Origin: Betaproteobacteria bacterium
Lineage (GTDB): Bacteria; Pseudomonadota; Gammaproteobacteria; Burkholderiales; SG8-39
NCBI GenBank assembly: GCA_016868105.1
Contig: VGIA01000019.1
Coordinates: forward strand, 1-33,843
Direction: 5' to 3'
DNA length: 33,843 nt
Below the pieces are notes generated by a model. The model worked only from the letters and a program-made list of their open reading frames with translations, was not told where the DNA came from and made no database searches. The first letter of the stretch is position 1; every line of letters starts with the position of its first letter. Positions 7,750 to 30,849 of the stretch are shown here, piece after piece. Position numbers and translations under genes: made by a program.

Positions 7750-8559
7750 TCAGGTCTTCCCGCGCCAGGGTACCAGCCTGGTCTCGAGGGCGCGCATGGC
7801 GAGGTCGAACGCATAGGCGACCACGCCAATGACGACGATGCCCATGATGACGATGTCGGTACGCAGGAAGTTGGAAGCGTTGAGCACCATCTGGCCGAGA
7901 CCGGCGGTGGCCGCGACCATCTCGGCGGCGACGAGCGTCGTCCAGCCAAAGCCCACCGCGATGCGCATGCCGGTGAGGATCTCCGGCAGCGCGGCCGGAA
8001 TCACCACGTGGCGTACCACCTGCAGGAAGCTCGCGCCCATCGAGTAGGCGGCGTGGATCTGCTCGATCGAGACCGAGCGCACGCCGGCGCGTGCCGCCAT
8101 GGCGAGCGGCGCGAAGCAGGCGAGGTAGATGAGGATGATCTTCGCCGTCTCGTCGATGCCGAACCAGATCACGATCAGCGGCAGGTAGGACAACGGCGGC
8201 AGCGGCCGGTAGAACTCGATCGGCGGGTCGAACGCACCGCGCGCGATGCGCGAGACGCCCATCGCGATGCCGATGGGGATCGCGGTCACGCAGGCGGCCG
8301 CGAAGGCCGCCAGCACGCGCCACAGGCTCCAGCCGAAGTGATTGACCAGCGGCTCGCCTCCCTGGATCTCGCCGCGGTTGGCATCGAGGAAGGCTTTTGC
8401 GATCGCCTCCGGCGCCGGCAGGTACAGTGGAGCGACCCAGCCCAGGTGGGTTGCCAGCCACCACAGCACGAGCAGCGCCGCGACGGTGATGGCGCTGATC
8501 GCCGTGCTCGGGCCCTCGCCCGGCATGCGGAAGCCGCTGACCGGCCGCGGGTCGCTCAT
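7750..8559 (-). CDS. tauC: ABC transporter permease, taurine/sulfonate/nitrate type (TauC/SsuC-like)
   Basis: Multi-pass protein with [63 protein letters not shown] and [22 protein letters not shown]; adjacent tauB- and tauA-like genes. Confidence 0.88.
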
Positions 8560-9335
8560 GCCGGCGCGCGGTGGATACGCGAGAGTATTTCCTCGCGCAG
8601 GCGGATGAATTCGGGATCGGCCTTCACCCGCCGCGCATCGCGGCTCTTGATGTAGCGGCGCGAAAAATCGACCTCGTAGGTGTGCGCGATGCGTCCCGGC
8701 CCCGGCGTCATGACGATCAGCCGCGTGGCGAGAAACAGCGCTTCCTCCACGCTATGCGTGATGAAGAAGAAGATCTTGCGCGTGGAATGCCAGAGTTCGA
8801 GGATCAGCTCCTGCACCGATTCGCGCGTGAAGGCGTCGAGCGCGCCCATCGGCTCGTCCATCAGCATCACTTCCGGGTCGCTCGCCAGCGCGCGCGCGAT
8901 CCCCACGCGCTGCTGCATGCCGCCGGAGATCTGGTAGATCGGGTGCTCGGCGAAATCCGCCAGACCGACCTGCCGCAGCTTCTCCAGCGCGATGTGCCGG
9001 CGCTCGGCTTGCGGCAGGCCGCGCATGCGCAGGGCGAATTCGACGTTGCCGCGCACCGACAGCCAGGGCATGAGCGCGTGCTTCTGGAACACCACGCCGC
9101 GCTCGCGCCCCGGCCCGGTGACGGCGCGCCCGTCCAGGCGCACCTCGCCCGCCGACGGGACGAGGAAACCGGCGATGCAGTTCAGCAATGTCGTCTTGCC
9201 GCAGCCCGAGGCTCCCAGGGCGACGACGAAATCCCCGGCGTCCATGTCGAGCGACACGCCGGAGAGCGCGAGCGTATGCCGGCCTGCTTGGCCGGCATAG
9301 TTCACGCTGACGTCGCGGACTTCGAGCTGCGCCAA
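8556..9335 (-). CDS. tauB: ABC transporter ATP-binding protein, taurine/sulfonate type (TauB-like)
   Basis: Walker [13 protein letters not shown], signature [15 protein letters not shown], Walker [21 protein letters not shown] start 4 nt after tauA stop; 4-bp overlap with tauC. Confidence 0.92.
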
Positions 9336-9339
9336 CGCG

Positions 9340-10329
9340 CTACTTCATCGCGCGCTGGATGTAGCTTGCGTTGACGCCCACCGAGTAGTCGGGCAGCGCC
9401 TTTTCCAGCTGCTTTTGCTCGACGAGGAATTGCGCCGTGGCGGCAAACGCCTTGGCCGCGATGCTGTTCTTGCCGCCACCCAGCCACTTGTCGGCCTGCT
9501 CCTTGATCGGCACGTAGGCGTAAAGCGCCATGCCGGCCGGCGTGTCCTCGGGTTTGGCGCCGCTCCACTTGGCGACCGCCTTCACTTCCGCCGAGTCCTT
9601 CGTCCACTTGGCCTTGTTCTTGCGATAGGACTCGTCGTGCGCGGCCATGATCTTCACCAGCGCGACGATGAACTCCTGGTTGCCCTTGGCCCAGTCCTTG
9701 TTCGCCGCGACGGCGTCGAAGGTGGCCTTGCCCGTCTTCGCGGTGATCTGGCCGGAGGTGATCACCACCTTGCCGTTGCCCTTCACCTTGGTGAGCACCG
9801 GATCCCAGATGTAGGTGGCGTCGAGGTCGCCGCGATCCCAGGCGGCGGCGATCTCCGGCGGGCGCATGTTGAGGAACTTGACGTCAGCGGCCTTGAGCTT
9901 CGCCATCTCAATCGCCACCATGGCGTGGAAGTGGCCGGTCGAGGCGAAGGGCGTCGCCACGCGCTTGCCCTTGAGGTCCTCGATCTTGTTGATGCCCGAG
10001 CCGTTGCGCGCCACCAGCGCCTCGGCATCGCCGATGTCGTCTAGGATCCAGAACAGCTCAAGCGGCAGCCCGCGCGAGATGCCGGCGGCAAGGGGCGCTG
10101 AGCCCAGCTCGCCCACCTGCACCTGGCCGGAGGCCATCGCCTTGATCACTTCACCGCCGCCGCCGAACTGCTTCCAGTTGATCTTGTAGCCGGTCGCTTT
10201 CTCGATTTCCTTGGACTCCTGCGCCACGCGGTAGGGCACCAGCATGTCCTGGTAGGCGATCGTGACCTCCTTCTGCGCCAACGCGCTGCCGGCGAACGCG
10301 AGGGCCAGTACGGCCAGTTTACGTTTCAT
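9340..10329 (-). CDS. tauA: Taurine-type ABC transporter substrate-binding protein (TauA-like)
   Basis: Signal peptide [19 protein letters not shown], then [18 protein letters not shown]...[62 protein letters not shown], typical of TauA. Confidence 0.9.
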
Positions 10330-10351
10330 GCTTCTCTCCTCCTGGGTTGGA

Positions 10352-11695
10352 CTACAGCGCCTTCAGCACGGCGCGAAGTTTTTCGGTCATTTCGTCGATG
10401 TGCGACTTCTCCGCCACCAGCGGCGGGGCGATGATGCCGGCGTCGCCCGTGGTCTTGATGTGCATGCCGGCATCGAACAGCTGCTTCTGCCACCGGTGCC
10501 CGCGCCGGCCGGGCGCGCCATCGGGCGCGACCTCGATGCCGGCGAGAAAACCGCAGCCGCGGATGTCGCTGACAACCGCGGCATCGCGCAACGACCACAT
10601 GGCGTCGAGAAAGTAGGGCGAGAGCGCCGCGGCGCGCTCGAACAGCCGCTCGTCGCGGTAGATGTCCTGCGCCGCGAGCGCCGCCGCGCAGGCCACCGGG
10701 TGCGCCGACCAGGTATAGCCGTGGAAGAACTCGATCGCGCCCTCGGGGGCGGCGGCCATCAGCGTGTCGTGGATCTCGCGCCGCGCCGCCACCGCTGCCA
10801 TCGGTACCGCGCCGTTGGTGATCGCCTTGGCCATGGTGACGATGTCCGGGGTCACGCCGAAGCTCTGCGCGCCGAAGGGCGCGCCGGTGCGGCCAAAGCC
10901 GCAGATCACCTCGTCGAAGACGAGCAGGATGCCGTGCGCGTCGCAGATCGCGCGCAGGCGCTCCAGGTATCCGCGCGGCGGCACCAGCACCCCGGTGGAG
11001 CCGGCGACCGGTTCCACCACGCAGGCTGCGATGTTCTCCGCGCCGTGCAGCTGCACGAGGCGCGCCAGATCCTCGGCGAGCTCGGCGCCGCGCGGCGGCT
11101 GCCCGCGCTCGAAGCGATTCTCCGCGAGCCAGGTGTGACGCATGTGCGCGACCGCGCCCGGCACGCCGGCGAAGGCGCGCCGGTTGTTGACTATGCCCGA
11201 AAGCGCGATGCCGCCGAAGTTGACGCCGTGGTAGGCGCGCTCGCGCGAGATGAAGAGCTGGCGTGTGCCCTCCTTCTTCGCGCGGTGGTACGCGAGCGCG
11301 AGCTTCATCGCCGTGTCGACCGCCTCCGACCCGGAGTTGACGAAGAACACCCGATCCAGGCCCGCAGGCAGGATCGCCGCGAGGCGGTTGGCGAGCTCGA
11401 AGGCCTTCGGGTGGCTGCGCAGGAAGTTCGGCGTGTAGTCCAGCTCCAGCAGCTGGCGGTGCACGGCCTCGGCAATTTCGCGCCGACCGTGTCCCGCCGC
11501 GCAGGTGAACAGGCCCGAAGAGCCGTCGAGCACCTTGCGCCCATCCGGCGTCCAGTAATACATGCCCTCGGCGCGCGCGACGAGCTTGGGCTCCTGCTTG
11601 AACTCGCGGTTGGGGGTGAAGGGCAGCCAGTGCGCCTCCATCGACGGCGCGGCGGGGGCGGGGGCGAGGGCGGTGCTCCTGGGAAGCGCGGACAT
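10352..11695 (-). CDS. tpa: Class III aminotransferase, omega-amino acid (beta-alanine/taurine):pyruvate transaminase candidate
   Basis: HWLPFTPNREFKQEPKLVARAEGMYYWTPDGRKVLDGSSGLFTCAAGHGR; FVNSGSEAVDTAMK; DEVICGFGRTG; PLP-Lys TMAKAITNG. Taurine specificity inferred only from the tauABC/xsc neighbourhood. Confidence 0.75.
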   Translation of the reverse strand: MSALPRSTALAPAPAAPSMEAHWLPFTPNREFKQEPKLVARAEGMYYWTPDGRKVLDGSSGLFTCAAGHGRREIAEAVHRQLLELDYTPNFLRSHPKAFELANRLAAILPAGLDRVFFVNSGSEAVDTAMKLALAYHRAKKEGTRQLFISRERAYHGVNFGGIALSGIVNNRRAFAGVPGAVAHMRHTWLAENRFERGQPPRGAELAEDLARLVQLHGAENIAACVVEPVAGSTGVLVPPRGYLERLRAICDAHGILLVFDEVICGFGRTGAPFGAQSFGVTPDIVTMAKAITNGAVPMAAVAARREIHDTLMAAAPEGAIEFFHGYTWSAHPVACAAALAAQDIYRDERLFERAAALSPYFLDAMWSLRDAAVVSDIRGCGFLAGIEVAPDGAPGRRGHRWQKQLFDAGMHIKTTGDAGIIAPPLVAEKSHIDEMTEKLRAVLKAL

Positions 11696-11717
11696 GGAAT
11701 TTCTCCCTGCGCGGTGG

Positions 11718-12863
11718 CTAGCCGCGCCCATCGAGCGGCACGTAGGGGCGCGGCTCCGGGCCATTATACATAGTCAGCGGGCGGATGAGGATGTTGTTCT
11801 CAGTCTGCTCCAGCACCGACACCGCCCAGCCGGGCACGCGGCCGATGGCGAAGATCGGCACGAACAGGTCCGGCGGGATGCCGTTCAGGTAGTAGACCAC
11901 GCCGGCGTAGAAATCCACGTTCACGTTGACGCCGTGGCGCGCGTAGGGCTTCATCGCCGCGACCAGGGCCTCGAGGATCTGGTACCACTGCGGCTGGCCC
12001 ATCTCGATCGATAGTTTCTCTACGCCCGCGCGCATGTGGCGCGCGCGCGGGTCCTCGGCGCGGTAGACGCGGTGGCCGAAGCCCATCACCGCCTCCTTCG
12101 CGGCGCGCTTGCGCTTCACGTACTCCGCGGCTTGCGACGCCTCGCCGATCTCCTTCGCCATGTGCATGACGTTCTCCGCGGCGCCGCCGTGCGCGGGGCC
12201 GGAGAGCGCGGCGATCGCCGCGGTCACCGCCGAATGCAGGTCGGCGTCGGTGCCCGCCACCACGCGCGCGGTGAAGGTGGAGGCGTTCGAGCCGTGCTCG
12301 GCGTGCAGGATCATGTCGGTGTCCATGAGCCGCGCCGTGTCTTCGCCCGGGCGCCTGCCCTGCAGCATCCAGAGGAAGTTCGCCGCGTGCCCCAGCGCCG
12401 GGTCGGGCGCGACCGGCGCGCGGCCGTTGCGGATGTGCTCGTGCGCGGCGACGATCATCGGCACCTGCGAGGTCAGCCGGATGCCCTTGCGCAGGGTCGC
12501 CGCCGCCGACTTGTCGGCGGTGTCCGGGTCGAAGGCGGCGAGCGCCGAGACCGCCGTGCGCAGCACGTCCATGGGGTGCGCGTTGCGAACCGTCCTGATG
12601 ATTTCAAGGATGTCCCTGGGAAGCGTGCGGGCAGATCTGAGTTCGTTGGTGAACGCTTCAAGCTGGTTCCGCGCAGGAAGCTCCCCCTTCAGGAGCAGGA
12701 AACAGGTTTCCTCGAAAGTGGATTGCTGGGCGAGGTCGTGGATCGAATAGCCGCGGTAGCGCAGCTCACCCGCGCGGCCGTCGATGTAGCAGACCTTGGA
12801 GCGGTCGAAGTAGACGCCCTTCAAGCCGCGGTGGATCTCGATCTTCTCCGGGGTGTCGCTCAT
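11718..12863 (-). CDS. Citrate synthase / 2-methylcitrate synthase family
   Basis: GLKGVYFDRSKVCYIDGRAGELRYRGYSIHDLA...; LHAEHGSNASTFTARV; GPAHGGAAENVM; GFGHRVYRAEDPRARHM; SVLEQTENNILIRP. Confidence 0.9.
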   Translation of the reverse strand: MSDTPEKIEIHRGLKGVYFDRSKVCYIDGRAGELRYRGYSIHDLAQQSTFEETCFLLLKGELPARNQLEAFTNELRSARTLPRDILEIIRTVRNAHPMDVLRTAVSALAAFDPDTADKSAAATLRKGIRLTSQVPMIVAAHEHIRNGRAPVAPDPALGHAANFLWMLQGRRPGEDTARLMDTDMILHAEHGSNASTFTARVVAGTDADLHSAVTAAIAALSGPAHGGAAENVMHMAKEIGEASQAAEYVKRKRAAKEAVMGFGHRVYRAEDPRARHMRAGVEKLSIEMGQPQWYQILEALVAAMKPYARHGVNVNVDFYAGVVYYLNGIPPDLFVPIFAIGRVPGWAVSVLEQTENNILIRPLTMYNGPEPRPYVPLDGRG

Positions 12864-12870
12864 GGTTCCA

Positions 12871-12945: not shown

Positions 12946-12971
12946 GCTGGGCGGCCATCGCTGTCCTGCGG

Positions 12972-14291
12972 CTACTTGCCGTACAGAACGCCCGGCAGCC
13001 ACAGCACCAGCTGCGGGAACAGGATCACGAGCGCGAGCCCGATCAGCTGGATCATCATGAACTGGAACATGCCGATGTAGATGTCGCTCAACTGCCAATG
13101 GGGCGCCACGCCCTTCAGGAAGTAGGCCGACAGCGCCACCGGCGGCGAGAGCCACGCGGTCTGCAGGTTGACCGCGATCAGGATCGCGAACCAGGTCATG
13201 TCGAACCCGAGCTGCTTCACCATCGGCAGCACGATCGGCACGAAGATGAGCACGATCGGCACCCACTCGAGCGGCCAGGCCAGGAGGAAGATCGCCGCCA
13301 TGATGATCACCAGGATCACGTACTTGTTCAGCTCCAGCCCCAGCAGCGCCTGCGACAGGACCTCGGGCGTGCCGAGCCGCGAGAACACGCCGCCGAAGAA
13401 GTTCGACGCCGCGACCAGGAACAGGATCATGCAGGACACCTCGATCGTCTTCAGGACCGAGTTGTAGAGCAGCGGCCAGGTGAGGCGCCGGTACAGGATG
13501 ACGAGCGTGAGCGAACCGAACGCGCCGAGCGCGGCGCCCTCGGTCGGCGTGGCCACGCCGCCGAGGATCGCGCCCAGCGAGCACGCGAGCAGCACCGAGA
13601 TCGGGATCATGCCTTTCACGAACTCGACGAGCAGAGAGCCGACGTTCGCCGCGCGCTCTTGCGCAGAGAGTGCCGGGCCGAGCGAAGGATTCAGGTAGCA
13701 GCGCGCGAGCGCGTAGGCCGCGTACATCGCCGCGAGCATGATCCCGGGGATGAGGGCCCCCGCATACAGGTCGGTCACCGGAATTCCCATGACCGGCCCC
13801 ATCACCACCAGCATGACGCTGGGCGGGATGAGGATACCAAGGGTACCTCCGGCGGTGATGATGCCGGCCGACAGGCTGACGTCGTACTTCGAGCGGTCCA
13901 TGGAGCGCGCCGCCATGATGCCGAGCAGCGTCACCGACGCGCCGACGATGCCGCTCGCCGCGCCGAACAGGGTAGCGACGAACATGCACGACAGGTAGAG
14001 CGACCCGTTCAGGCCGCCGAGCATCTTCTGCATGACGAGGAAGAGGCGCTCCATCAGCCCGGCGCGCTCGAGCAGCAGGCCCATGAAGATGAAGAGCGGC
14101 ACCTGAGCAAGCGTCTGCTCCTTCATGGTCGCGAAGGTCTGGAAGAGCAGCAGGTGGAACACGGTGTCGCCGAAGCCCCAGTAGCCGAAGCCCAGGCCGA
14201 GGAAGATCAGCGTGAACGCGATCGGGAAGCCGATGAAGATGGAGGCGATGAGCGCAACCAGCATCCATCCGCCGATGACCTCGGGGGTCAC
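12972..14291 (-). CDS. dctM: TRAP transporter large permease (DctM)
   Basis: Multi-pass protein with AGIITAGGTLGILIPPSVMLVVMGPVMGIPVTDLYAGALIPGIMLA and FVPIVLPMVKQLGFDMTWFAILIAVNLQTAWLSPPVALSAYFLKGV. GTG start overlaps dctQ stop. Confidence 0.95.
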   Translation of the reverse strand: MTPEVIGGWMLVALIASIFIGFPIAFTLIFLGLGFGYWGFGDTVFHLLLFQTFATMKEQTLAQVPLFIFMGLLLERAGLMERLFLVMQKMLGGLNGSLYLSCMFVATLFGAASGIVGASVTLLGIMAARSMDRSKYDVSLSAGIITAGGTLGILIPPSVMLVVMGPVMGIPVTDLYAGALIPGIMLAAMYAAYALARCYLNPSLGPALSAQERAANVGSLLVEFVKGMIPISVLLACSLGAILGGVATPTEGAALGAFGSLTLVILYRRLTWPLLYNSVLKTIEVSCMILFLVAASNFFGGVFSRLGTPEVLSQALLGLELNKYVILVIIMAAIFLLAWPLEWVPIVLIFVPIVLPMVKQLGFDMTWFAILIAVNLQTAWLSPPVALSAYFLKGVAPHWQLSDIYIGMFQFMMIQLIGLALVILFPQLVLWLPGVLYGK

Positions 14292-14875
14292 TTCGCGTTG
14301 CCTTCACTCGGCAGTTCGTCGGCGAGCGCTTCCTCAATCGAGCGCTGCTTGGTCAGCCATGCGCCAGTGCGGATCGCATGCACGCACTTGAGGAACTCGG
14401 ACGCGCCCTGCAGGAGCAGCAGGCCCAGCGCGACCGGCAGCACCGACTTGAGCGGGTACAGCGGCGGCATCCAGGCGCTGGCCATCGCGCGCTCCTGCCG
14501 CTGCCAGGACAGGATCGCCCAGTCCACCGACAGCCAGAAGAAGATGGCGATGCCGGGAAAAAAGAGGAACAGGTAGCAGAACGCGTCCACCGAGGCCTGT
14601 ACCTTCACCGGCCACTTCTGGTAGAGGAAATCGGTGCGGATGTGCGAGCCGCGGTACAGCGTGTAGGCGGCCCCCAGCATGAACAGCGCCCCGTAGAGCA
14701 TGTACGAGAGGTCGAAGGCCCAGTACGTCGGCTTCACCAGGTAGCGCATCGCGATTTCCCAGGTCATCACGAAGATCAGCGGAATCACCAGCCATCCCGC
14801 GATGCGGCCAGACCAGTCGCTGATCGCGTCGATGCCGCGGGTTACGCGCACCAGGGCGCCCGATTCGGTTCTCAT
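14288..14875 (-). CDS. dctQ: TRAP transporter small permease (DctQ)
   Basis: Four-TM small protein, MTWEIAMRYLVKPTYWAFDLSYMLYGALFMLGAAYTLYRGSHIRTDFLY, between DctP and DctM. Confidence 0.93.
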   Translation of the reverse strand: MRTESGALVRVTRGIDAISDWSGRIAGWLVIPLIFVMTWEIAMRYLVKPTYWAFDLSYMLYGALFMLGAAYTLYRGSHIRTDFLYQKWPVKVQASVDAFCYLFLFFPGIAIFFWLSVDWAILSWQRQERAMASAWMPPLYPLKSVLPVALGLLLLQGASEFLKCVHAIRTGAWLTKQRSIEEALADELPSEGNAK

Positions 14876-14936: not shown

Positions 14937-16049
14937 CTACTTGCCGCCCTTCAGGTGCGCCTCGGCGACCGACGTGTTCAGCTTCTGGATGCTGAGCCAG
15001 TAGGGCACCGTGTCCTTGGCGAATGCGGTCTGCGAATCAAGCACCTTCTTGAAGAACGCGTTCTTTGACGCAGTCTCGGCGTAGACCTTCTTCGCCGCCG
15101 CCGTGTACGCCGTGAAGTAATCCTGCGGCGTGTCGTGCGCCTGCACGCCGTGCTTGGTCTTGAGCTCGATCAGCGCCAGTGTGTTGGCGCGGATGCGATA
15201 CGCCATGGTGTCCATGAGGGACGCCATCGCCGCGGTCTCGAAGATCGCCTGCACGTCCTTCGGCAGCTTGTTCCAGAAGTTCTTGTTGATGTAGATGTCT
15301 GCGTTGACGACGTTCTGGTGCAGGCCCTGCAGGTAGTAATGCTTGAACGCCCGCTGAAAGCCGTAGGCGATATCGGTCACCGGGCAGCACCATTCCGCGC
15401 CGTCGAGCACACCGCGCTCGGCCGAGGGAATGATCTCGCCCCCGGGCAGGAACACCGCCGGCACGCCCATTTCCTTGTAGATCGCGCCCGGGATCCCCGG
15501 CGGGGTGCGGAAGCGGCGCTTCTTCAGGTCTTCGACGCTCTTGATCGGCTCCTTGAACCAGCCCAGCGCCTCGGGGCCGACCGACTGCACCATGAAGCCG
15601 ACCACGTTCATCTTCAGATGCTGGTCCCACATCTCGCGGTACAGGTCCCTGCCGCCGCCGTGGAAGAACCACGAGAGCCAGGCCATCTGGTCCATGCCCA
15701 CGCCGGAGCCCGCCGAGGGCGAGCCGAACAGCGTCGCGGCGGGGTGCTTGCCGGTCCAGTAGTGTGTCCACGCGAAGCCGGCTTCGACCAGGCCCTTGTC
15801 CACCGCGTCGAGCGTCTCGGCGGTGCCGACCACTGCGCCGTCGGCCAGCACCTCGATCTTGAGGCGGCCGTTGGTCATCGCCTCCATGCGCTTGGAGAAC
15901 TCCTGCAACAGCTTGAACTCGTCGGCCGATGCCGGCACCACGGTCTGCAGCCGCATGCGATGGGTCTGCGCAAGCGCGAGGCCCGGCAGCAGCGCGGCCA
16001 GGAGCGCGAGCGCGGCCGCGCGGCGCATCCAGCTAGTGAACCGATCCAT
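14937..16049 (-). CDS. dctP: TRAP transporter substrate-binding protein (DctP)
   Basis: Signal peptide MDRFTSWMRRAAALALLAALLPGLALAQ, then MRLQTVVPASADEFKLLQEFSKRMEAMTNGRLKIEVLADGAVVG...RRFRTPPGIPGAIYKEMGVPAVFLPGGEI. RBS AAAAGGGGAC upstream. Confidence 0.93.
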   Translation of the reverse strand: MDRFTSWMRRAAALALLAALLPGLALAQTHRMRLQTVVPASADEFKLLQEFSKRMEAMTNGRLKIEVLADGAVVGTAETLDAVDKGLVEAGFAWTHYWTGKHPAATLFGSPSAGSGVGMDQMAWLSWFFHGGGRDLYREMWDQHLKMNVVGFMVQSVGPEALGWFKEPIKSVEDLKKRRFRTPPGIPGAIYKEMGVPAVFLPGGEIIPSAERGVLDGAEWCCPVTDIAYGFQRAFKHYYLQGLHQNVVNADIYINKNFWNKLPKDVQAIFETAAMASLMDTMAYRIRANTLALIELKTKHGVQAHDTPQDYFTAYTAAAKKVYAETASKNAFFKKVLDSQTAFAKDTVPYWLSIQKLNTSVAEAHLKGGK

Positions 16050-16079
16050 GTTGTCCCCTTTTGTTGACTGGTCAAAGAA

Positions 16080-16093
16080 TGAAACCGCTTGCA
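16080..16093. promoter_or_regulatory. Putative LacI-family operator O1
   Basis: TGAAACCGCTTGCA fits TGNAANCGNTTNCA; located in the dctP/lacI divergent intergenic region. Confidence 0.5.
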
Positions 16094-16146
16094 AAGACTA
16101 TTTTAGGGGTTCGTCATAGTCAAGCTGCGGTGCAACAGAAAGCAAC

Positions 16147-16160
16147 TGCAAACGTTTTCA
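16147..16160. promoter_or_regulatory. Putative LacI-family operator O2
   Basis: TGCAAACGTTTTCA, near-palindromic with central CG, fits TGNAANCGNTTNCA. Lies 24 bp before the LacI ATG. Confidence 0.6.
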
Positions 16161-16184
16161 TCGGCAGTGCTAGAGTTGCCCCCG

Positions 16185-19528: not shown

Positions 19529-19546
19529 GAAATCGCCAAGTTATCA

Positions 19547-19574
19547 GAAAATGGAACGAATCCGGCACATTTTC
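19547..19574. promoter_or_regulatory. Inverted repeat in the iclR/xsc divergent intergenic region, candidate IclR operator
   Basis: GAAAATG-(14 nt)-CATTTTC, a perfect 7-bp inverted repeat in the 111-bp intergenic region. Confidence 0.4.
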
Positions 19575-19639
19575 GCACTCCGCCTTGTCCCCGCGAGGGC
19601 GCTGTGGAAGACTTCTCTCCTCGTTCAGGAGGAAACCCC

Positions 19640-21470: not shown

Positions 21471-22427
21471 ATGAGGAAGATCGTTTTGTTGGCGGGGCTG
21501 CTGCTGGCAACCCAGGCGGGGGCGCAGGACTGGCCTGTGAAGCCGGTCCGGTTCATCAACCCGTTCCCGGCCGGCGGCGGCACGGACACGTTCGCCCGGC
21601 CGCTGTCGGTGGTGTTGAGCAGGAACCTCGGGCAGCAGTTCATCGTCGAGAACCAGGGCGGTGCGGGCGGCACGGTCGGCGCGGCGAACGCCGCGCGGGC
21701 CGGGGGCGACGGCTACACGTTCCTGATCGGGGCGGTGCACCACACCATCGCGCCGAGCGTGTACCCGAAGCTCAGCTACGACCTCGAGAAGGACTTCGTC
21801 CCCGTCACGCTGCTCGCCACGGTGCCGAACGTGGTGGTGCTGAACTCGAAGACTAACTTCAAGACGGTGAAGGAACTCGAGACGTTCGCGAAGGCGAACC
21901 CGGGGCGGCTGAACTACGGCTCGCCGGGATCGGGCACCTCGCAGCACCTCGCGGCGGAGCTCTTCAAGCTGGGCACCAAGACCTTCATGGTCCATATTCC
22001 CTACCGCGGCCTCGGGCCGGCGATGCAGGACTTCCTCGCCGGCAACTTCGAGGTCATGTTCGACGGGCTGGGGGCGTCGGCGGCGCAGATCAAGGCGGGC
22101 AAGATCCGCGGCATCGGCATGATGGCGCCGAAGCGCCATCCTCAGTTCCCCGACATCCCGACCATGGCCGAGCAGGGCTATCCGGGCATGGAAGTGTCAA
22201 CCTGGTACGCGATGTGGGGCATCCGCGGCACGCCGCAGACGGTCATCGACAAGATGTACGCCGAAGTGTCGAAGGCCCTCAAGGATCCGGCCATCGTCAA
22301 GGTCTGGGAGGTCACCGGCGCCGACTTCGGCGGCCAGCGCCCCGGGGAGTTCGCCAAATACGTGCGCTCCGAGATCGAACGCTGGGCCAGGGTTTCCAAG
22401 GCGGCCAACATCAAGGTGGACAACTGA
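21471..22427 (+). CDS. Bug/TctC-family substrate-binding protein
   Basis: Signal peptide MRKIVLLAGLLLATQAGAQ, DWPVKPVRFINPFPAGGGTDTFARPL...ENQGGAGGTVGAANAAR...HIPYRGLGPAMQDFLAGNFEVMFDG. Confidence 0.94.
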   Translation: MRKIVLLAGLLLATQAGAQDWPVKPVRFINPFPAGGGTDTFARPLSVVLSRNLGQQFIVENQGGAGGTVGAANAARAGGDGYTFLIGAVHHTIAPSVYPKLSYDLEKDFVPVTLLATVPNVVVLNSKTNFKTVKELETFAKANPGRLNYGSPGSGTSQHLAAELFKLGTKTFMVHIPYRGLGPAMQDFLAGNFEVMFDGLGASAAQIKAGKIRGIGMMAPKRHPQFPDIPTMAEQGYPGMEVSTWYAMWGIRGTPQTVIDKMYAEVSKALKDPAIVKVWEVTGADFGGQRPGEFAKYVRSEIERWARVSKAANIKVDN

Positions 22428-22482
22428 CCTGATAGGCGCGGCCCAAACCCCGGTTTCCGAGGCGCGCGACGCGGTCGCTGGG

Positions 22483-23856
22483 TTGGTGCGCCGCGCGCGC
22501 GACGCCCAGCGCGAGTTCGCCCGCTGGCCGCAGGCGCGCGTCGACGAGGCCGCGCTTGCCTGCGGCTGGGCGATCATGAAGCCGCAGAACAACCGCGTGC
22601 TCGCCGAGATGGCGGTGCGCGACTCGGGCCTCGGCAACGTCGAGGACAAGATCCAGAAGAACCATCGCAAGACCCTGGGCCTGCTGCGCGACATCGCCGG
22701 CGTGAGGACGGTCGGCGTGCTCGCCGAGGTCCCGGAAAAGGGCATCACGGAAATCGCGCGGCCGGTCGGCGTGGTCGCCGCCATCACGCCCTCGACCAAC
22801 CCCGGCGCGACGCCCGCCAACCAGATCATCAACGCCATCAAGTGCGGCAACGCGATCATCCTCGCGCCCTCGCCCAAGGGTTCCAGCACCGGCGAGAAGC
22901 TGCTCGAGTTCGTCCACGCCGAGCTTGCAAAGGTGGGCGCGCCCGCCGGCCTGGTACAGATCCTCCCCGCGCCGGTGACCAAGGCGGCGACGCTCGAGCT
23001 GATGCGCCAGGCAGACCTGGTCGCCGCCACCGGATCGCAGGCCAACATCCGCGCGGCGTACTCCAGCGGCAAGCCCGCGATCGGCGTCGGCATGGGCAAC
23101 GTGGTCTCGATCGTGGACGCCAGCGCCGAGCTCGCCGACGCGGCGCGAAAGATCGCGCTCTCCAAGACCTTCGACAACGCCACCAGCTGCTCGTCCGAGA
23201 ACTCGGTTGTGATCCTCGCGCCGGTCTACGACGCGATGCTGGCCGAGTTGGCGAAAGCGGGCGGCGTGATGCTGGGCGACACCGACAAGGCGCGGCTGCA
23301 GAAGCTGATGTTCCGCGACGACAAGCTCGCCCCGGCCGCGACGGCCCAGGCCGCGCCGCGCTTAGCGTCGCTGGCCGGCGTGGAGAACGCCGCGGCCAAG
23401 GCGGCGCGCTTCCTGATGGTGGAGGAATCGGGCGTCGGCCCCGCCTGTCCCTTCTCCGGCGAGAAGCTCTCGCCGGTGCTCGCGGTCTACCGCGCGGCGG
23501 GCTTCGACCAAGCCTTTGCGCTCACCCGCCGGATCTACGATTACCAGGGCCGCGGGCACTCGGTGTCGATCCACACCCGGGACGAGGCGCAGGTGCGCCG
23601 GCTCGGCCTCGAGATGGAGGTCGCCCGGGTGATCGTCAACCAGGCGCATTGCATTGCCACCGGCGGCAGCTTCGACAACGGGCTGCCGTTCTCGCTGTCG
23701 ATGGGCTGCGGCACGTGGGGCGGCAACAGCTTCTCGGACAACATGCACTGGCGCCATTTCCTCAACATCACGCGCATCGCCCGCGTGATCCCCGAGCGCG
23801 TCCCGACCGAGTCCGAGATCTTCGGCAGCTACTTCGCCAAGCACGGCAGGGGCTGA
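22483..23856 (+). CDS. sauS: Acylating aldehyde dehydrogenase, probable sulfoacetaldehyde dehydrogenase (SauS-like)
   Basis: RARDAQREFARWPQARVDEAALACGWAIMKPQNNRVLAEMAVRDSGLGNVEDKIQKNHRKTLGLLRDIAGVRTVGV; ARPVGVVAAITPSTNPGATPANQIINAIKCGNAIILAPSPKGSS; catalytic Cys KTFDNATSCSSENSVV. Start uncertain: no ATG; TTG 22483, GTG 22486 or an upstream site. Confidence 0.8.
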   Translation: MVRRARDAQREFARWPQARVDEAALACGWAIMKPQNNRVLAEMAVRDSGLGNVEDKIQKNHRKTLGLLRDIAGVRTVGVLAEVPEKGITEIARPVGVVAAITPSTNPGATPANQIINAIKCGNAIILAPSPKGSSTGEKLLEFVHAELAKVGAPAGLVQILPAPVTKAATLELMRQADLVAATGSQANIRAAYSSGKPAIGVGMGNVVSIVDASAELADAARKIALSKTFDNATSCSSENSVVILAPVYDAMLAELAKAGGVMLGDTDKARLQKLMFRDDKLAPAATAQAAPRLASLAGVENAAAKAARFLMVEESGVGPACPFSGEKLSPVLAVYRAAGFDQAFALTRRIYDYQGRGHSVSIHTRDEAQVRRLGLEMEVARVIVNQAHCIATGGSFDNGLPFSLSMGCGTWGGNSFSDNMHWRHFLNITRIARVIPERVPTESEIFGSYFAKHGRG

Positions 23857-25334
23857 TGGCGCAGCAGACCCTGCGCGACGTGCTCGCCGGGCATGTTGCG
23901 CGCCAGCCTGACCGGCCCTTCCTGATCGCCCCCGAGAGCGGACGGATCCTGCTCTACCGCGAGATCGACCGCCAGTGGCGCATCCTGGCGCGCTTCCTGG
24001 CAGCCTCAGGCCTTGAGCGCGGCGACAAGGTGGCGCTGTACCTGCACAACGGCTACCAGGCCGCGCTGCTGTTCCTCGCCACCATGGTCGGCGGCTACGT
24101 GATCGCGCCGCTGAACCTGCTCTCGCAGCGCTCGCAGCTGGCTTACGTGCTCGATCACTGCGACTGCAAGGTGCTGTTCACGTCGCGCGAATACGAGAAG
24201 GCCCTGGGGGAGGCGCTCGCCGACGTAAAGCGCCGCATCCGGGTGATCGTCATCGACACCGACTCGCCGGCGCTCTTTCTGGATGAAGAACTGCCGGCGA
24301 AGCAGCTCGAGCCGGTCGCGCCGCAGGATCCGGCGCTCTTGATGTACACCTCGGGCACCACGGGGACGCCCAAGGGCGCACTGCTCACCCACGCCAACCT
24401 GGTGGCGGGCGGCCGCGCCGTGACGGACTGGCACGGCCTCGGGCCCGAAGACCGGTGCCTGTCGTCGCTGCCGATCTACCACATCAACGGCCAGGTGATC
24501 GCCACGGTGACGCCGTTCGTCTCCGGCGGCAGCCTGATCGCGCCGCGCCGCTTCAGCGTGTCGACCTGGTGGGACATGGTCGAGCGCCACGAGGCGACCT
24601 GGATCAACCTGGTGCCGACGATCATCGCCTACCTGCTGAACGCCGCCGAGCCCGGGCGCAAGTACGCCTTCCCGAAGGTGCGCTTCGGCCGCTCGGCCTC
24701 GGCGCCGCTGCCGCCCGAGCAGCACCGCGCCTTCGAGCAGACCTTCGGCGTGTCGGTGACCGAGTGCATGGGCATGACCGAGACCTCGTCGGTGGCATTC
24801 GCCAACCCGCAGGATCCGGCCAGGCGCAAGTACGGCAGCCTCGGGCTGCCTTGCGGCGTCGAGGCGCGCGTGGTGAACGGCGAGCTGCAATTGCGCGGGC
24901 CGAACATCATGACGGGCTACTACAAGGCCCCGGAACTGACCGCGAAGACGTTCGATGCCGAGGGCTGGCTGCTCACGGGCGACCTCGGCCATGCGGACGC
25001 GGACGGATTCTTCTACATCTCAGGCCGCTCCAAGGAGCTGATCATCAAGGGCGGCGAGAACATCGCGCCGCGCGAGATCGACGAGGCCCTGCTGAAGCAT
25101 CCGGCGGTGCTGGAGGCCGCGGCGGTCGGCATCCCGGACAAGAACTACGGCCAGGACATCCTCGCCTGCGTGGTGCTGAAGCAGGGCGCGAGCCTGTCGG
25201 AGGCGGAACTGCGCCAGTTCTGCCTGGGGGAGCTCGGCCGCTACAAGACGCCCCGGGAGTTCCGCATCCTCGCCGAACTGCCCAAGGGGCCCTCGGGAAA
25301 GGTGCAACGGCTCAAGCTGGCCGGCGACGTTTGA
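23856..25334 (+). CDS. sauT: Acyl-CoA ligase, probable sulfoacetate-CoA ligase (SauT-like)
   Basis: LLMYTSGTTGTPKGALLTHANL, GMTETSSVAFANP, GWLLTGDLGHADADGFFYISGRSKELIIKGGENIAPREID, GPSGKVQRLKL. TGATG coupling with the SauS-like gene and xsc context. Confidence 0.78.
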   Translation: MAQQTLRDVLAGHVARQPDRPFLIAPESGRILLYREIDRQWRILARFLAASGLERGDKVALYLHNGYQAALLFLATMVGGYVIAPLNLLSQRSQLAYVLDHCDCKVLFTSREYEKALGEALADVKRRIRVIVIDTDSPALFLDEELPAKQLEPVAPQDPALLMYTSGTTGTPKGALLTHANLVAGGRAVTDWHGLGPEDRCLSSLPIYHINGQVIATVTPFVSGGSLIAPRRFSVSTWWDMVERHEATWINLVPTIIAYLLNAAEPGRKYAFPKVRFGRSASAPLPPEQHRAFEQTFGVSVTECMGMTETSSVAFANPQDPARRKYGSLGLPCGVEARVVNGELQLRGPNIMTGYYKAPELTAKTFDAEGWLLTGDLGHADADGFFYISGRSKELIIKGGENIAPREIDEALLKHPAVLEAAAVGIPDKNYGQDILACVVLKQGASLSEAELRQFCLGELGRYKTPREFRILAELPKGPSGKVQRLKLAGDV

Positions 25335-25440: not shown

Positions 25441-26196
25441 TTACCCCATGTGCCAACCGTGACTCACGACGATAGACTGGCCCGTGAGCGCTTTGGTTGG
25501 AAACGCGGCAAGGAAGAGCGCCACCTGGGCGACTTCGTTCACGGTGGTGAACTCGCCATCGACGGTCGTGCGCAACATGACGTCCTTGACGACCGATTCC
25601 TCAGAGATGTTCATCTCTTTCGCGAGTTGAGGAATCTGCCGCTCGATCAGCGGCGTGCGCACAAAGCCCGGGCAGATGAGGTTGGAGCGGATGCCGTGCG
25701 GCGCGCCCTCCTTCGCCACCACGCGGCACAGGCCTGCCAACCCGTGCTTGGCGGCGACGTAGGGGCCTTTCTGCACCGAGGCCTCGAGCGAATGCACCGA
25801 GCCCATGAGGATGATCGAGCCGCCGCGCTTCTGGCGGATCATGTGCCGCAGGCAGGCGCGCGTGGTCAGGAAACCGCCATCGAGATGGATCCCCAGCACC
25901 CGCTTCCAGTTGGCGAAAGACACCTCGGCGATGCTGTCGATGTGCTGCACGCCCGCGTTGCTCACAAGAATGTCGACGCCGCCCAGCTGGCGCACCGCCT
26001 CATCCACGCCCCGCTCCACTTGCCCCTCGTCGGTCACGTCCATGCGCAGGCTGATGGTGTTCTTCGTCCCGGTTCGGGGTTCATTCAAGTCCGCGATGCA
26101 GACCTTCGCCCCCGCCTCGGCGAAGACGCGGGCGATCTCGGCGCCGATGCCGCTCGCTGCGCCGGTGACGATGGCAGATTTCCCGTTGAGCGTCAT
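25441..26196 (-). CDS. SDR-family dehydrogenase, 3-hydroxybutyrate dehydrogenase-like
   Basis: [96 protein letters not shown]. The AGVQH and AKHGL...[10 protein letters not shown] motifs resemble BdhA. Confidence 0.82.
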
Positions 26197-26250
26197 GGGG
26201 GCTCCTGGGGGAGTAGGAACACGAACGGCGGCGCCATCGCGAGCCAGGTC

Positions 26251-26934
26251 TCAGGTGCGCAGAAATCCACCGTCGACGGCGATGGTCTCGCCGGTGATGA
26301 ACGACGCGGCTTCCGAGGCGAGGAAAAGGGCCGCCCTTGCGATGTCCTCCGCCTCGGCAAGGCGGCCGAGCGGTATGCGCGCGAGCACCCGCTCGCGCAG
26401 CGCGGCGTCGAGCTGCGCGCTCACCATGTCGGTGGCGACCACCGCCGGCGCAATGGCGTTGACGCGGATGCCCTGCGCGCCGAGCTCGCGGCCCAGGCCG
26501 CGGGTGATGGCCACCACAGCCGCCTTGGTCGCGCCGTACCAGACGTTGCCGATCGCGCCGCCGCCCTTTTCGTGCGACACCGAGGCGATATTGATGATCG
26601 ACGCGCCCCGCCGTCCCCGCATGGCGGGAACCGCCGCCTGCACGCAATTGAAGATGCCCGTGACGTTCACCGCAAGCAGGCGGTCCCAGGCCTCGCCGGT
26701 GGTCTGGTCGAAAGGTCCGGAGGCGAGAAGGCCGGCGTTATTCACCAGCACATCGATCGCACCGACTTTGTCCATGCATTTTCTTACCGATGCGCGATCC
26801 GTCACATCCATCGCCAGGCCGCCGCCCGCGATGTCGGCCCGGTGAACGACGAAGCCTTCCTTTTCGAAACCGGCAGCAATACCCGCGCCAAGCCCGCGAG
26901 CCGCGCCGGTGACGAGCACGACCCTGCCGTTCAT
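26251..26934 (-). CDS. SDR-family oxidoreductase (FabG-like)
   Basis: VVLVTGAARGLGAGIAAGFEKEG; LVNNAGLLASGPFDQTT; WYGATKAAVVAITRGLGRELGAQGIRVNAIAPAVVATDMV; FLASEAASFITGETIAVDGGFLRT. Confidence 0.92.
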   Translation of the reverse strand: MNGRVVLVTGAARGLGAGIAAGFEKEGFVVHRADIAGGGLAMDVTDRASVRKCMDKVGAIDVLVNNAGLLASGPFDQTTGEAWDRLLAVNVTGIFNCVQAAVPAMRGRRGASIINIASVSHEKGGGAIGNVWYGATKAAVVAITRGLGRELGAQGIRVNAIAPAVVATDMVSAQLDAALRERVLARIPLGRLAEAEDIARAALFLASEAASFITGETIAVDGGFLRT

Positions 26935-28373
26935 GAGGAGAAGGTCATTTCGGTGCCCGCGAAGCGGATGCGCGCGTACTCGATGTCGCGCCGCTGCGCG
27001 AGCCAGCCCGCGAGCTCGGCGAGCGGCGTGGTGCGAAAGCTGTATTGCGGCGGCGGCTTGCTCAGGGGCGCGAGCAACTTGCGGTCGTAGAAGGCGGCGA
27101 GCAGCAGCTCCTCGTCGAGCGCGCCGGGGAGCTCGCGCCGCAGCCGCGGCAGCCAGGGCTCGAGGTTCTCCCCCGGTCGGTTGCTGACGAGGTCCTTTTC
27201 CTTCAAATCGATTCGATCGAGAAAATCGCCGGAAATCGGAGCGGCGAGCTTTCCATAGCAGCCGGCCGCGTACTTGCGGACCTCGTCCGGGATCGTCTTG
27301 TAGCGCTCGCCCTGCACCACGTTCAGCACTGCCTGCGTGACGATGTACTGCGCGAACGGGCTCACCGCGATCGGATAGCCGAGGTCCTTGCGCACGCGCG
27401 CCGCCTCCTCGAGAATCTCGGGCAGGCGGTGCTCGATTTTCATCGTCTGCAGCTGGTAGCGCAGGTTGGAGATCATGCCGCCGGGAATCTGGTGCTGGTA
27501 GAGCGCCGGATCGTATTTCGCCGGCACGCCGGCGGGCTTATCCTCGCGCACGCACAGCCAGCGGAAATAGTCCGCCACCCGCTTCAGCGCTTTCCGGTTC
27601 ATGCCCGTCTTGAACCCCAATCGCTCGGCGCGCCCGGCGATCTCCTCTGTCGCCGGCAGCGACGCGCCGTTCGCAAGCGGCTCGCTCGCGGTGTAGCCGT
27701 GGGCGAAGCCGCTCTCGATCGCGACCTGATAGACCTCGGGCGCGAGCCCGGATTGGCAATGCGAGTGCAGCTGCACCGGGATCGGGCCTGCCGCCTGGAC
27801 CACAGCCGAAAAGAGCGAGCGGCCGCGCTCCGGGGTCAAAAGGCCGGTCGGGTCCTTGATGCACAGGATGTCGGACTTCTGCTCGACGAGTTCTTTCGCG
27901 CGCGCGACGTAGTACGCGTCCGTGTGCACCGGCGAGAGCGTGTAGGTCAGCCAGCCGTTGATCTTCATCCCCGCCTCGCGGCCGGCCTTGATCGAAGATT
28001 CGAGGTTGCGGTTGTCGTTCAGCGCGTCGTAGACCGTGAACACCTTGATGCCGAGCTTCGCCAGCACCTTCGCGTTCAGCTCGACCACGTCGTCCGGGAA
28101 GAGCTCGAAGGTGTAGAGGCTCTGGCCTCGCGTCAAGGCGTCGGTTGGGGTGCGCAGCCGCTCGCACAGCAGCTTGACGCGCGCGAACGGATCCTCGTGC
28201 AGATAGCGCACGCAGACATCGAACACCGCGCCGCCGAGGATGTTGATCGTGTCGTAGCCGCAGCGATCGATCTCCTCGAGGATTGGCGTCATCATGGCCG
28301 TCGTCATCCGGGTGCCCCAGAGGCATTGGTGCGCGTCGCGCAGCGTTACATCCACGAAACCGAAGCGTTTCAT
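26931..28373 (-). CDS. Carboxyltransferase-domain protein (oxaloacetate decarboxylase alpha / pyruvate carboxylase B / transcarboxylase 5S type), no biotinyl domain
   Basis: VTLRDAHQCLWGTRMTTAMMTPILEEID; VYDALNDNRNLESSI; LCIKDPTGLLTPERG; VQLHSHCQSGLAPEVY; PGGMISNLRYQL. Ends before any biotin-attachment motif. Confidence 0.9.
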   Translation of the reverse strand: MKRFGFVDVTLRDAHQCLWGTRMTTAMMTPILEEIDRCGYDTINILGGAVFDVCVRYLHEDPFARVKLLCERLRTPTDALTRGQSLYTFELFPDDVVELNAKVLAKLGIKVFTVYDALNDNRNLESSIKAGREAGMKINGWLTYTLSPVHTDAYYVARAKELVEQKSDILCIKDPTGLLTPERGRSLFSAVVQAAGPIPVQLHSHCQSGLAPEVYQVAIESGFAHGYTASEPLANGASLPATEEIAGRAERLGFKTGMNRKALKRVADYFRWLCVREDKPAGVPAKYDPALYQHQIPGGMISNLRYQLQTMKIEHRLPEILEEAARVRKDLGYPIAVSPFAQYIVTQAVLNVVQGERYKTIPDEVRKYAAGCYGKLAAPISGDFLDRIDLKEKDLVSNRPGENLEPWLPRLRRELPGALDEELLLAAFYDRKLLAPLSKPPPQYSFRTTPLAELAGWLAQRRDIEYARIRFAGTEMTFSS

Positions 28374-28383
28374 CGCAATTCGA

Positions 28384-28836
28384 TCAACTCGGGTCGATCA
28401 GCATGAGCGGCTGGCCGTGCTCGACCGACTGCGCGTTGCCGACCAGGACTTCCCTGACGACGCCGCTCAGGCCCGCCTCGACCTGGTTCATCAGCTTCAT
28501 CACTTCGATGATGCCGACCACGGTGCCAGGCTCGACCTTGCTGCCCGCCTCGACGAACGGCGGCGCATCCGGCGCCGGCGCGCGGTAGAACGTGCCGACC
28601 ATCGGGGCGTGCACCGCCGGCGCATCCGCGGGTGCTTCAGTTTTCGACAAAACCCTTTGTTCCGGCTCGCCTTTCGGTTCCACTGGCGCATGGCTACCCA
28701 CTTGCGCTCCATTGGCCCGGCGCACGTTGACCTCGATGTCGCCGACCTTGAGGCGGAATTCGCCGAAGTGCGACGCGGTGCGGATCACCTCGGCGATCTT
28801 CAGCAGGTCCTGGTAGGACAGTTCGCGGCTCGCCAT
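28384..28836 (-). CDS. Biotin carboxyl carrier protein (AccB-like)
   Basis: APMVGTFYRAPAPDAPPFVEAGSKVEPGTVVGIIEVMKLMNQVEAGLSGVVREVLVGNAQSVEHGQPLMLI, with biotinylation motif EVMKLMN. Confidence 0.93.
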   Translation of the reverse strand: MASRELSYQDLLKIAEVIRTASHFGEFRLKVGDIEVNVRRANGAQVGSHAPVEPKGEPEQRVLSKTEAPADAPAVHAPMVGTFYRAPAPDAPPFVEAGSKVEPGTVVGIIEVMKLMNQVEAGLSGVVREVLVGNAQSVEHGQPLMLIDPS

Positions 28837-28856
28837 TGGCAGGATAATATTCGACC

Positions 28857-29687
28857 ATGAGCCTACCCGTCATCATTACCGTCGCTATTACCGGCGCCGT
28901 GCCGAAGAAGAAGGACAATGCGGCGGTTCCGGTCGTCCCCGCCGAGCAGGTGGAGTCGACGCACGAGGCCTTCGAGGCCGGCGCTTCGCTCGTCCACATC
29001 CATGTGCGCAATCCGGACGAGTCGCCCGGCTCCGATCCCGAGCTCTACGGGCGCGTGCAGGAGGGAGTGCGCAAGCATTGCCCGGGCATGATCGTGCAGT
29101 TCTCCACCGGTGGCCGCGGGCGCGAGCAGTCCAGGCGCGGCGCAATGCTGTATCTGAAGCCCGATATGGCGTCGCTCGCCACCGGCTCGGTGAACTTCCC
29201 GACCAACATCTACGAGAACCCGCCCGACTTCGTCGAAGGTCTGGCCAAGGCCATGCTCGAGAACGACATCAAGCCCGAGGTCGAGGTGTTCGACCTGGCG
29301 ATGCTCTACAACGCCGCCAATCTCGTCAAAAAGGGCCTGCTCAAGGATCCTCCGCATGTGCAGTTCGTGATGGGCATCCCGAATGCCATGCCTGCGCGGC
29401 GTTCCATTTTTGACTTTCTGCGTTCCGAACTCAAACAGGTGCTCCCGAACGCAACCTGGGTCGCCGCGGGGGTCGCGCGGCACCAATGGGAAGTGAACCA
29501 GTGGTGCATGGAGACCGGCGGTCACTGCCGCACCGGGCTCGAGGACAACCTCAGAATCACCCCCGACCGTCTCGCGGCGAGCAACGCGGAACTCGTCAAG
29601 CTCATCGTCGACAACTGCGCGAAATTCGACCGCCGGCCTGCGACGCCGAAGGAAGCGCGGCGGATACTGGGGCTGCGCGCGGCCTGA
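28857..29687 (+). CDS. Beta-keto acid cleavage enzyme family (BKACE, DUF849)
   Basis: PVIITVAITGAVPKKKDNAAVPVVPAEQVESTHEAFEAGASLVHIHVRNPDESPGSDPELYGRVQEGVRKHCPGMIVQFSTGGRG...FDLAML...FVMGIPNAMPA...GVARHQWEVNQWCMETGGHCRTGLEDN, typical DUF849. Confidence 0.93.
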   Translation: MSLPVIITVAITGAVPKKKDNAAVPVVPAEQVESTHEAFEAGASLVHIHVRNPDESPGSDPELYGRVQEGVRKHCPGMIVQFSTGGRGREQSRRGAMLYLKPDMASLATGSVNFPTNIYENPPDFVEGLAKAMLENDIKPEVEVFDLAMLYNAANLVKKGLLKDPPHVQFVMGIPNAMPARRSIFDFLRSELKQVLPNATWVAAGVARHQWEVNQWCMETGGHCRTGLEDNLRITPDRLAASNAELVKLIVDNCAKFDRRPATPKEARRILGLRAA

Positions 29688-29733
29688 TCGCCGGCGGTCA
29701 GGCCTGGCGCGACTGCGCCACCACCGGCGCGTT

Positions 29734-30849
29734 TCAGGCCGCGAGCGTGTCGGGTGCGGTGTAGTCGTAGCCGAGGTCGTCGGCGACCGCCTTGCAGGTG
29801 ACCTTGCCGAGGGCGACGTTGAGGCCGTTGCGCAGATGCGCGTCGTCGGCCAGGGCCTTCCTCCAGCCCTTGTTGGCGATGGCGAGCGCGAAGGGCAGGG
29901 TGACGTTGTTCAGCGCGTAGGTCGAGGTGCGGGCGACACCGCCCGGCATGTTGGCCACGCAGTAATGGATGACGTTGTCGACCACATAGGTCGGCTCGGC
30001 ATGGGTGGTGGCCTTGGAGGTCTCGGCGCAGCCGCCCTGGTCGATGGCGACGTCCACGAGAACCGCGCCGGGCTTCCAGTCCTTCAGCATGGCGCGGGTG
30101 ACGAGCTTGGGCGCCGCGGCGCCGGGGATCAGCACCCCGCCGATGACCAGATCGGCGGTGGCGCATTCGTCTTCGACCGCGCCCTGGGTGGAGTAGATGG
30201 TCTTGAGCTGGGTGCCGAAGCGCGCGACCAGCTCTTCCATGCGCTCGGTGCTCTTCTCGAGGATGGTCACCTCAGCGCCCATGCCGAGCGCAATGGCAGC
30301 GGCATTGGTGCCGACCACGCCGCCGCCCAGGATCACCACCTTGGCGGGGGCCACACCCGGAACGCCGCCGAGCAGCACGCCGCGGCCGCCCTGGGCCTTC
30401 TCCAGGCAATGGGCGCCGGACTGGACCGACATGCGGCCGGCGACCTGCGACATCGGGGCCAGCAGCGGCAGGCCGCCGCGCGGCGAGGTCACGGTCTCGT
30501 AGGCGATGCAGACGGCGCCGGAGTTGACCAGATCGCGGGTCTGCTCCGGATCGGGCGCGAGATGCAGATAGGTGTAGAGGGTCTGGCCTTGGCGCAGCAT
30601 GGCGCGCTCGGCCGCCTGCGGCTCCTTGACCTTCACCAGCAGGTCGGCCTTGGCGAAGATCTCGGCGGCGGACGGGATGATCGTGGCGCCGGCCGCGGCA
30701 TAGTCGGCGTCGGTCGCGCCGATCCCGGCGCCGGCATTGGCCTGCACCCAGACCTTGTGGCCCTGGCGCACGGCTTCGCGCACCGACAAGGGCGTCATGC
30801 CGACGCGGTATTCGTGATTCTTGATTTCCTCCGGTACGCCGATGAGCAT
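29734..30849 (-). CDS. ald: Alanine dehydrogenase
   Basis: [44 protein letters not shown]...LVKVKEPQ...[12 protein letters not shown]...[62 protein letters not shown]. Confidence 0.96.

Follow-up and report, generated by a model that had tools for sequence, protein, structure and literature searches.

Taurine, isethionate and other C2 sulfonates are a widespread form of organic sulfur. In Cupriavidus necator H16, the sauRSTU, iseJ and xsc genes provide SauS, SauT and Xsc chemistry together with an oxidative isethionate route (cited in PMC12625764). SauST has also been described with a tripartite tricarboxylate transporter (TTT), and an omega-amino acid aminotransferase of EC 2.6.1.18 can replace taurine:pyruvate aminotransferase (Tpa) in converting taurine to sulfoacetaldehyde (PMC12625764). 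Here, we analyzed a 33,843-nucleotide stretch of DNA from a Betaproteobacteria bacterium (contig VGIA01000019.1, hereafter the window), in which 21 genes at 7750–30849 probably form a catabolic island for C2 sulfonates centred on sulfoacetaldehyde acetyltransferase (Xsc), with a five-gene module that probably belongs to the same metabolism. The SauS, SauT and Xsc chemistry and the oxidative isethionate route predicted here would resemble those of C. necator H16, whereas the transporter types differ and the extra module is the window's.

The assembly to which the window belongs, as a single contig, amounts to 2.5 Mb (190 contigs, 96% complete) and is taken to be a metagenome-assembled genome; the closest named xsc loci come from uncultured Burkholderiales or Betaproteobacteria. 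The expected gene models were reproduced by a codon-usage gene caller, and identities were assigned with curated NCBIfam/TIGR models and their cut-offs (in bits) together with Pfam domains. The neighborhoods of xsc were compared across 80 named loci and genomes belonging to the family and order of the window, covering about 10 kb on either side, with neighboring genes labelled by similarity to those of the window (L numbers denote loci and G numbers genomes). The layout is modular: tauCBA, the aminotransferase, citrate synthase and dctMQP genes lie on the minus strand, followed by LacI and GMC genes on the plus strand, IclR on the minus strand, and xsc, a lone tctC, SauS and SauT on the plus strand. 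Two short-chain dehydrogenases (SDR1 and SDR2), a carboxyltransferase and a biotin carboxyl carrier protein (BCCP) then follow on the minus strand, the beta-keto acid cleavage enzyme (BKACE) on the plus strand, and alanine dehydrogenase (AlaDH) on the minus strand. The end points proposed in the first-pass annotation agree with the gene models, coinciding with the tauC stop at 7750 and the AlaDH start at 30849. Every gene it named is found at or near 7750–30849 by curated or domain models, but its inventory left out six genes inside the span: the LacI gene (16167–17204) and both SDRs, the pyruvate-carboxylase-B-like protein, BCCP and BKACE, so that the five-gene module at 25441–29687 was overlooked. 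All of the modules turn up again beside xsc in other Burkholderiales genomes, which puts the island far beyond a chance assembly.

The core of the island is as follows.

18764–19528, minus strand: IclR-family regulator (PF09339, PF01614), divergent from xsc
19640–21430, plus strand: xsc, sulfoacetaldehyde acetyltransferase (TIGR03457, 918 bits, cut-off 676; NF005713, 923 bits, cut-off 620)
21471–22427, plus strand: lone Bug/TctC solute-binding protein (PF03401)
22483–23856, plus strand: SauS, acylating sulfoacetaldehyde dehydrogenase (NF047625, 738 bits, cut-off 600)
23856–25334, plus strand: SauT-like AMP-forming acyl-CoA ligase (PF00501/PF13193)

The xsc product is Xsc, predicted to convert sulfoacetaldehyde and phosphate to acetyl phosphate and sulfite. 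The possibility raised in the first-pass annotation, that this protein falls with the acetolactate synthases, is ruled out because TIGR03457 gives it 918 bits and the acetolactate synthase model TIGR00118 only 315, while none of the other thiamine diphosphate enzymes of the genome exceeds 316 bits with the Xsc model. The IclR gene keeps its position by xsc in most of the xsc loci examined, and the order IclR–xsc–TctC–SauS–SauT is widespread in Burkholderiales. The SauS start is uncertain and may lie about 20 nt upstream, a whole-genome match beginning at 22462; the SauT start overlaps the SauS stop by 1 base. This pair is conserved in relatives and also in Paraburkholderia phymatum and Caballeronia. 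The closest solved relatives of the SauT candidate are oxalyl- and malonyl-CoA synthetases, a likeness in keeping with a short substrate acid that bears a second negative charge. Many relatives carry TctC or TctC–TctB–TctA between xsc and SauS; two of them (L156 and L160) have the full set ahead of SauS, unlike the window, where no TctA or TctB gene adjoins the Bug/TctC gene. Accordingly, the three transporter types counted earlier (ABC, TRAP and Bug) reduce to two complete systems and a lone solute-binding protein. The pta gene lies elsewhere in the genome, TauE candidates occur on other contigs, and a search of the 96% complete genome with PF00174 (SorA/YedY family) found no sulfite dehydrogenase member. 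In four loci (L187 at 6460–10917, L021, L145 and L151), a glutamate-mutase-like B12 set (MutE, MutL) stands beside xsc; L187, L021 and L145 also encode a B12-binding protein there, and the first two of these an enolase-superfamily gene. In L187, the set lies between xsc and the TTT/SauS genes; the set was not seen in the window and is possibly another sulfonate branch.

Of all parts of the locus, the five-gene module is the least ordinary.

25441–26196, minus strand: SDR1, 3-hydroxybutyrate-dehydrogenase-like (NF009931, 348 bits, cut-off 340)
26251–26934, minus strand: SDR2, FabG-like short-chain dehydrogenase (PF13561)
26931–28373, minus strand: PycB/OadA-like biotin-dependent carboxyltransferase (NF006761, 439 bits, cut-off 402)
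28384–28836, minus strand: BCCP (TIGR00531, 126 bits, cut-off 115), biotin site EVMKLM
28857–29687, plus strand: BKACE (NF053568, 460 bits, cut-off 350; PF05853)

The module is most likely part of the same sulfonate metabolism, judging from its enzyme families and gene linkage. Among 98 genomes of the family, the window's included, BKACE orthologs (85–89%) and carboxyltransferase orthologs (68–80%) co-occur in the same six and always lie within a few kb of each other; the probability of this co-occurrence by chance is about 7e-9, not corrected for relatedness. In G404, the order is LacI–GMC, BKACE on the opposite strand, and BCCP–carboxyltransferase–SDR2–SDR1–xsc, a run in which neighboring genes overlap by 4 nt or are separated by no more than about 50 nt. 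This contig ends inside xsc, and a second one starts inside xsc and continues with TctC–TctB–TctA–SauS–SauT; we infer that the two join at xsc. In G406, of the same genus, the co-directional run reads BCCP–carboxyltransferase–TRAP–TAXI–SDR2–TauE (sulfite exporter)–SDR1–xsc, with SauS fragments at contig ends and SauT adjoining. SDR1 is thus the gene immediately upstream of xsc in both genomes, at a distance of about 50 nt, and L139 and L176 have SDR2 placed between GMC and xsc. The biotin-dependent carboxylase is completed in G448, where BCCP and the carboxyltransferase flank a biotin carboxylase gene. G448 lacks Xsc under a strict cut-off, a result overturned by Xsc and SauS fragments on another of its contigs, C353.

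We consider it somewhat improbable, yet a possibility to be taken seriously, that the module is a chance neighbor unrelated to sulfonates, acting as an anaplerotic two-subunit pyruvate carboxylase or in a levulinate/3-oxoadipate-type pathway. NCBIfam names the carboxyltransferase "pyruvate carboxylase subunit B" and the BKACE 3-oxoadipate-specific (NF053568), and carboxylated levulinate is 3-oxoadipate, so levulinate carboxylation would yield the named substrate of the BKACE. The carboxyltransferase belongs to a distinct clade (support 100/100) that retains the Arg-Asp, Lys, His-x-His and RGQ Arg of pyruvate carboxylases, among them the Arg and the metal sites suited to a pyruvate-like ketone. 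BKACE relatives 75–77% identical outside the family occur in unrelated gene settings. Furthermore, no Xsc was found in two genomes that carry the module, G465 (85% complete) and G456 (64% complete). Xsc and SauS are present in four of the six module genomes; the enrichment of Xsc is only weakly above that expected by chance (4/6 versus 25/98, p = 0.035) among relatives that are not independent. Physical linkage is the stronger argument. Against a chance neighbor stand the co-directional gene runs, which take in xsc in G404 and both xsc and TauE in G406, as well as the TauE gene adjoining a same-clade carboxyltransferase in G478 and the sulfite-oxidase-family gene near the module in G465. In addition, Ser occupies the catalytic position across the whole clade, where the pyruvate carboxylases and almost all of the remaining relatives compared have Thr; one paralog outside the clade (L186_4514) also has Ser. 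G478 carries four carboxyltransferase relatives (L185 7122–8588; L186 4514–5983, 9739–11187 and 11964–13409), one of which adjoins TauE and an SDR2-like gene.

The role of the module within sulfonate metabolism may be sketched from its enzyme families. The nearest structures to SDR1 are hydroxybutyrate dehydrogenases (6zzo and 4trr), and SDR2 overlaps the carboxyltransferase gene by 4 nt. An SDR would oxidize an alcohol to a methyl ketone, which BCCP and the carboxyltransferase, with a biotin carboxylase acting in trans, would carboxylate to a beta-keto acid. The BKACE, whose nearest structures are 3no5, 3fa5 and 3chv, would then cleave this acid with acetyl-CoA to acetoacetate and an acyl-CoA. 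In the alignment, it lacks the Glu seen at the matching position of the aminohexanoate enzyme, a residue that we take to bind the amino group, and this absence fits a substrate without one. The window protein is a member of the 3-oxoadipate:acetyl-CoA type of the BKACE family by the curated model, but differs in its linkage to a biotin carboxyltransferase and xsc. The acyl-CoA is plausibly sulfoacetyl-CoA, destined for SauS and then Xsc. In its specific form, a tentative proposal that we regard as unlikely though worth stating, the module would be an undescribed fourth entry, in which a sulfonated methyl ketone, such as 2-oxopropane-1-sulfonate, made by an SDR from its alcohol, is carboxylated to a sulfonated beta-keto acid that the BKACE would cleave with acetyl-CoA to acetoacetate and sulfoacetyl-CoA; with this ketone, the cleavage product would be the very substrate of SauS. 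A literature search returned no biological paper on sulfoacetone or sulfoacetoacetate as metabolites and nothing relevant linking sulfoacetaldehyde with a biotin carboxyl carrier. If the module does feed sulfoacetyl-CoA, it would represent a new type of organosulfonate breakdown, by ketone carboxylation and a cleavage forming a CoA ester, and hydroxyalkyl and oxoalkyl sulfonates, some of them industrial, would be predicted as growth substrates.

On the other side of xsc lie the genes proposed for isethionate and a citrate synthase gene.

11718–12863, minus strand: citrate synthase II (TIGR01800, 450 bits, cut-off 421)
12972–14291, minus strand: DctM, large permease of a tripartite ATP-independent periplasmic (TRAP) transporter (PF06808)
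14288–14875, minus strand: DctQ, TRAP small permease (PF04290)
14937–16049, minus strand: DctP, TRAP solute-binding protein (PF03480)
16167–17204, plus strand: LacI-family regulator (PF00356, PF13377), overlapping the GMC start by 4 nt
17201–18751, plus strand: GMC oxidoreductase (PF00732/PF05199)

The GMC oxidoreductase is proposed to be an IseJ-like isethionate dehydrogenase. Its gene is linked to a transporter and xsc in the window and in relatives: GMC and TRAP genes occur near IclR–xsc in L139, L141, L147 and L148, the LacI–GMC pair is kept in L138, L183 and L184, and citrate synthase adjoins xsc, IclR, GMC or TRAP genes in L141, L142, L146, L149 and L150. The TRAP transporter and GMC enzyme may nevertheless serve 2,3-dihydroxypropane-1-sulfonate (DHPS) or another alcohol, because two xsc loci with TRAP, LacI and GMC genes carry a histidinol-dehydrogenase-like gene after dctM (L138 at 19029–20000 and L172 at 16005–17324). 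We take this gene to be of the HpsN kind, which suggests a DHPS input in those relatives. Curated models give the GMC protein no specific name, and it matches a general choline dehydrogenase subfamily just at the cut-off (605.1 versus 605), as would suit DHPS or some other sulfonated or non-sulfonated alcohol. Even so, such a substrate in place of isethionate appears rather unlikely: the window and L141 combine TRAP and GMC genes with citrate synthase, with no histidinol-dehydrogenase-like gene beside dctM, and a 66% identical GMC in the P. phymatum sulfonate island lies between a major facilitator superfamily (MFS) gene and an IclR gene, as expected for the iseU–iseJ–iseR layout of ise genes.

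The taurine branch occupies the two ends of the island.

7750–8559, minus strand: tauC-like ABC permease (NF007545 TauC, 290 bits, cut-off 342)
8556–9335, minus strand: tauB-like ABC ATPase (NF008421, 329 bits, cut-off 357), overlapping tauC by 4 nt
9340–10329, minus strand: tauA, taurine-binding protein (TIGR01729, 331 bits, cut-off 304)
10352–11695, minus strand: AptA-type class III omega-aminotransferase (NF052567 AptA, 624 bits, cut-off 500)
29734–30849, minus strand: AlaDH (TIGR00518, 501 bits, cut-off 392)

The aminotransferase is proposed to act as a taurine:pyruvate aminotransferase. The first-pass annotation correctly recognized an omega-amino-acid:pyruvate enzyme, but its best model is AptA, the beta-alanine:pyruvate kind, and no taurine-named (Tpa) model is among the best 25 matches listed. 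The tauABC–aminotransferase set recurs by xsc in L040, L165 and L169, as tauABC–aminotransferase–IclR–xsc in L040 and tauABC–aminotransferase–AlaDH–GMC–xsc in L165; relatives of the aminotransferase also stand beside tauABC and/or IclR–xsc in L053, L075 and L086. That the enzyme is a beta-alanine:pyruvate transaminase and taurine no carbon source here, as the AptA equivalog match and the nearest solved structures (beta-alanine/omega-amino acid:pyruvate transaminases) would have it, is improbable given its position directly after tauABC, the many genomes that keep this association and the reported conversion of taurine to sulfoacetaldehyde by EC 2.6.1.18 enzymes (PMC12625764). The gene immediately upstream of AlaDH (30873–31895, likewise on the minus strand) encodes a BenC-type ferredoxin/FAD reductase; a partner oxygenase was not seen.

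The best reading of these parts, built on curated matches and conserved neighborhoods, is the multi-input funnel onto one Xsc that was proposed earlier, although it is not new in kind and its transporters were overcounted. Taurine would enter through TauABC and be deaminated with pyruvate by the AptA-type aminotransferase, AlaDH regenerating pyruvate from alanine. Isethionate would enter through DctPQM and be oxidized by the GMC dehydrogenase. Sulfoacetate would come in with the help of the Bug protein together with a permease encoded elsewhere; SauT would then carry out its activation and SauS the reduction. The three routes would all yield sulfoacetaldehyde, from which Xsc would form acetyl phosphate and sulfite; the unlinked Pta may then supply acetyl-CoA and the neighboring citrate synthase pass it to the tricarboxylic acid cycle. 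Several points weigh against this reading, in addition to the model names and distributions given above. The taurine models are the best NCBIfam matches of TauB and TauC, yet both proteins score under the cut-offs, and no specific SauT or IseJ model matched in the libraries used. Enzyme families and conserved linkage are what was computed; substrates, reaction order and all activity are predictions. Within the stretches examined, none of the sampled relatives carries all three C2 routes, which makes this exact combination uncommon for the family. Outside the island, a minus-strand run at 286–7666 (carotenoid/lignostilbene-type dioxygenase, TctC, hydrolase, nitronate monooxygenase-like, thiolase-like, AMP ligase and TetR genes) is judged unrelated to it.

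The earlier suggestion that this combination with citrate synthase was undescribed does not hold, since three-route xsc islands are carried by P. phymatum STM815 pBPHY01 (NC_010625, ~757–792 kb) and Caballeronia sp. NK8 pNK83 (NZ_AP024327.1:123532-165319), and citrate synthase near xsc or IclR recurs in the family. These two plasmids also rule out a unique three-input island: in ~30–33 kb, both surround xsc with counterparts of the three C2 routes, built partly from different parts, with role names assigned from similarity and gene order (beyond xsc and pta, the deposited pNK83 annotation gives generic names, and no annotation accompanied the P. phymatum stretch used). Similar to the window, pBPHY01 carries tauABC-like ABC genes, aldehyde dehydrogenase, AMP-ligase, MFS and IclR genes resembling SauSTUR, and the 66% identical GMC with MFS and IclR genes, around two xsc copies and pta. 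In contrast, its pta is linked, MFS carriers replace TRAP and Bug, and a TauXY-like dehydrogenase, with a TauR-like gene in the same region, replaces the AptA-type aminotransferase; no BKACE/carboxylase module was seen within the stretch examined. pNK83 shares SauSTUR-like genes, xsc–pta and GMC with MFS around one xsc, together with a TauXY-like pair, but its GMC is 51% identical and no tauABC, TRAP or such aminotransferase was recognized in the stretch. The novelty claim as first stated is thus weakened, and the window's island appears to be a funnel of a known kind. It illustrates how one desulfonating enzyme may gather several feed routes by module swapping, in lineages known here only from metagenomes.

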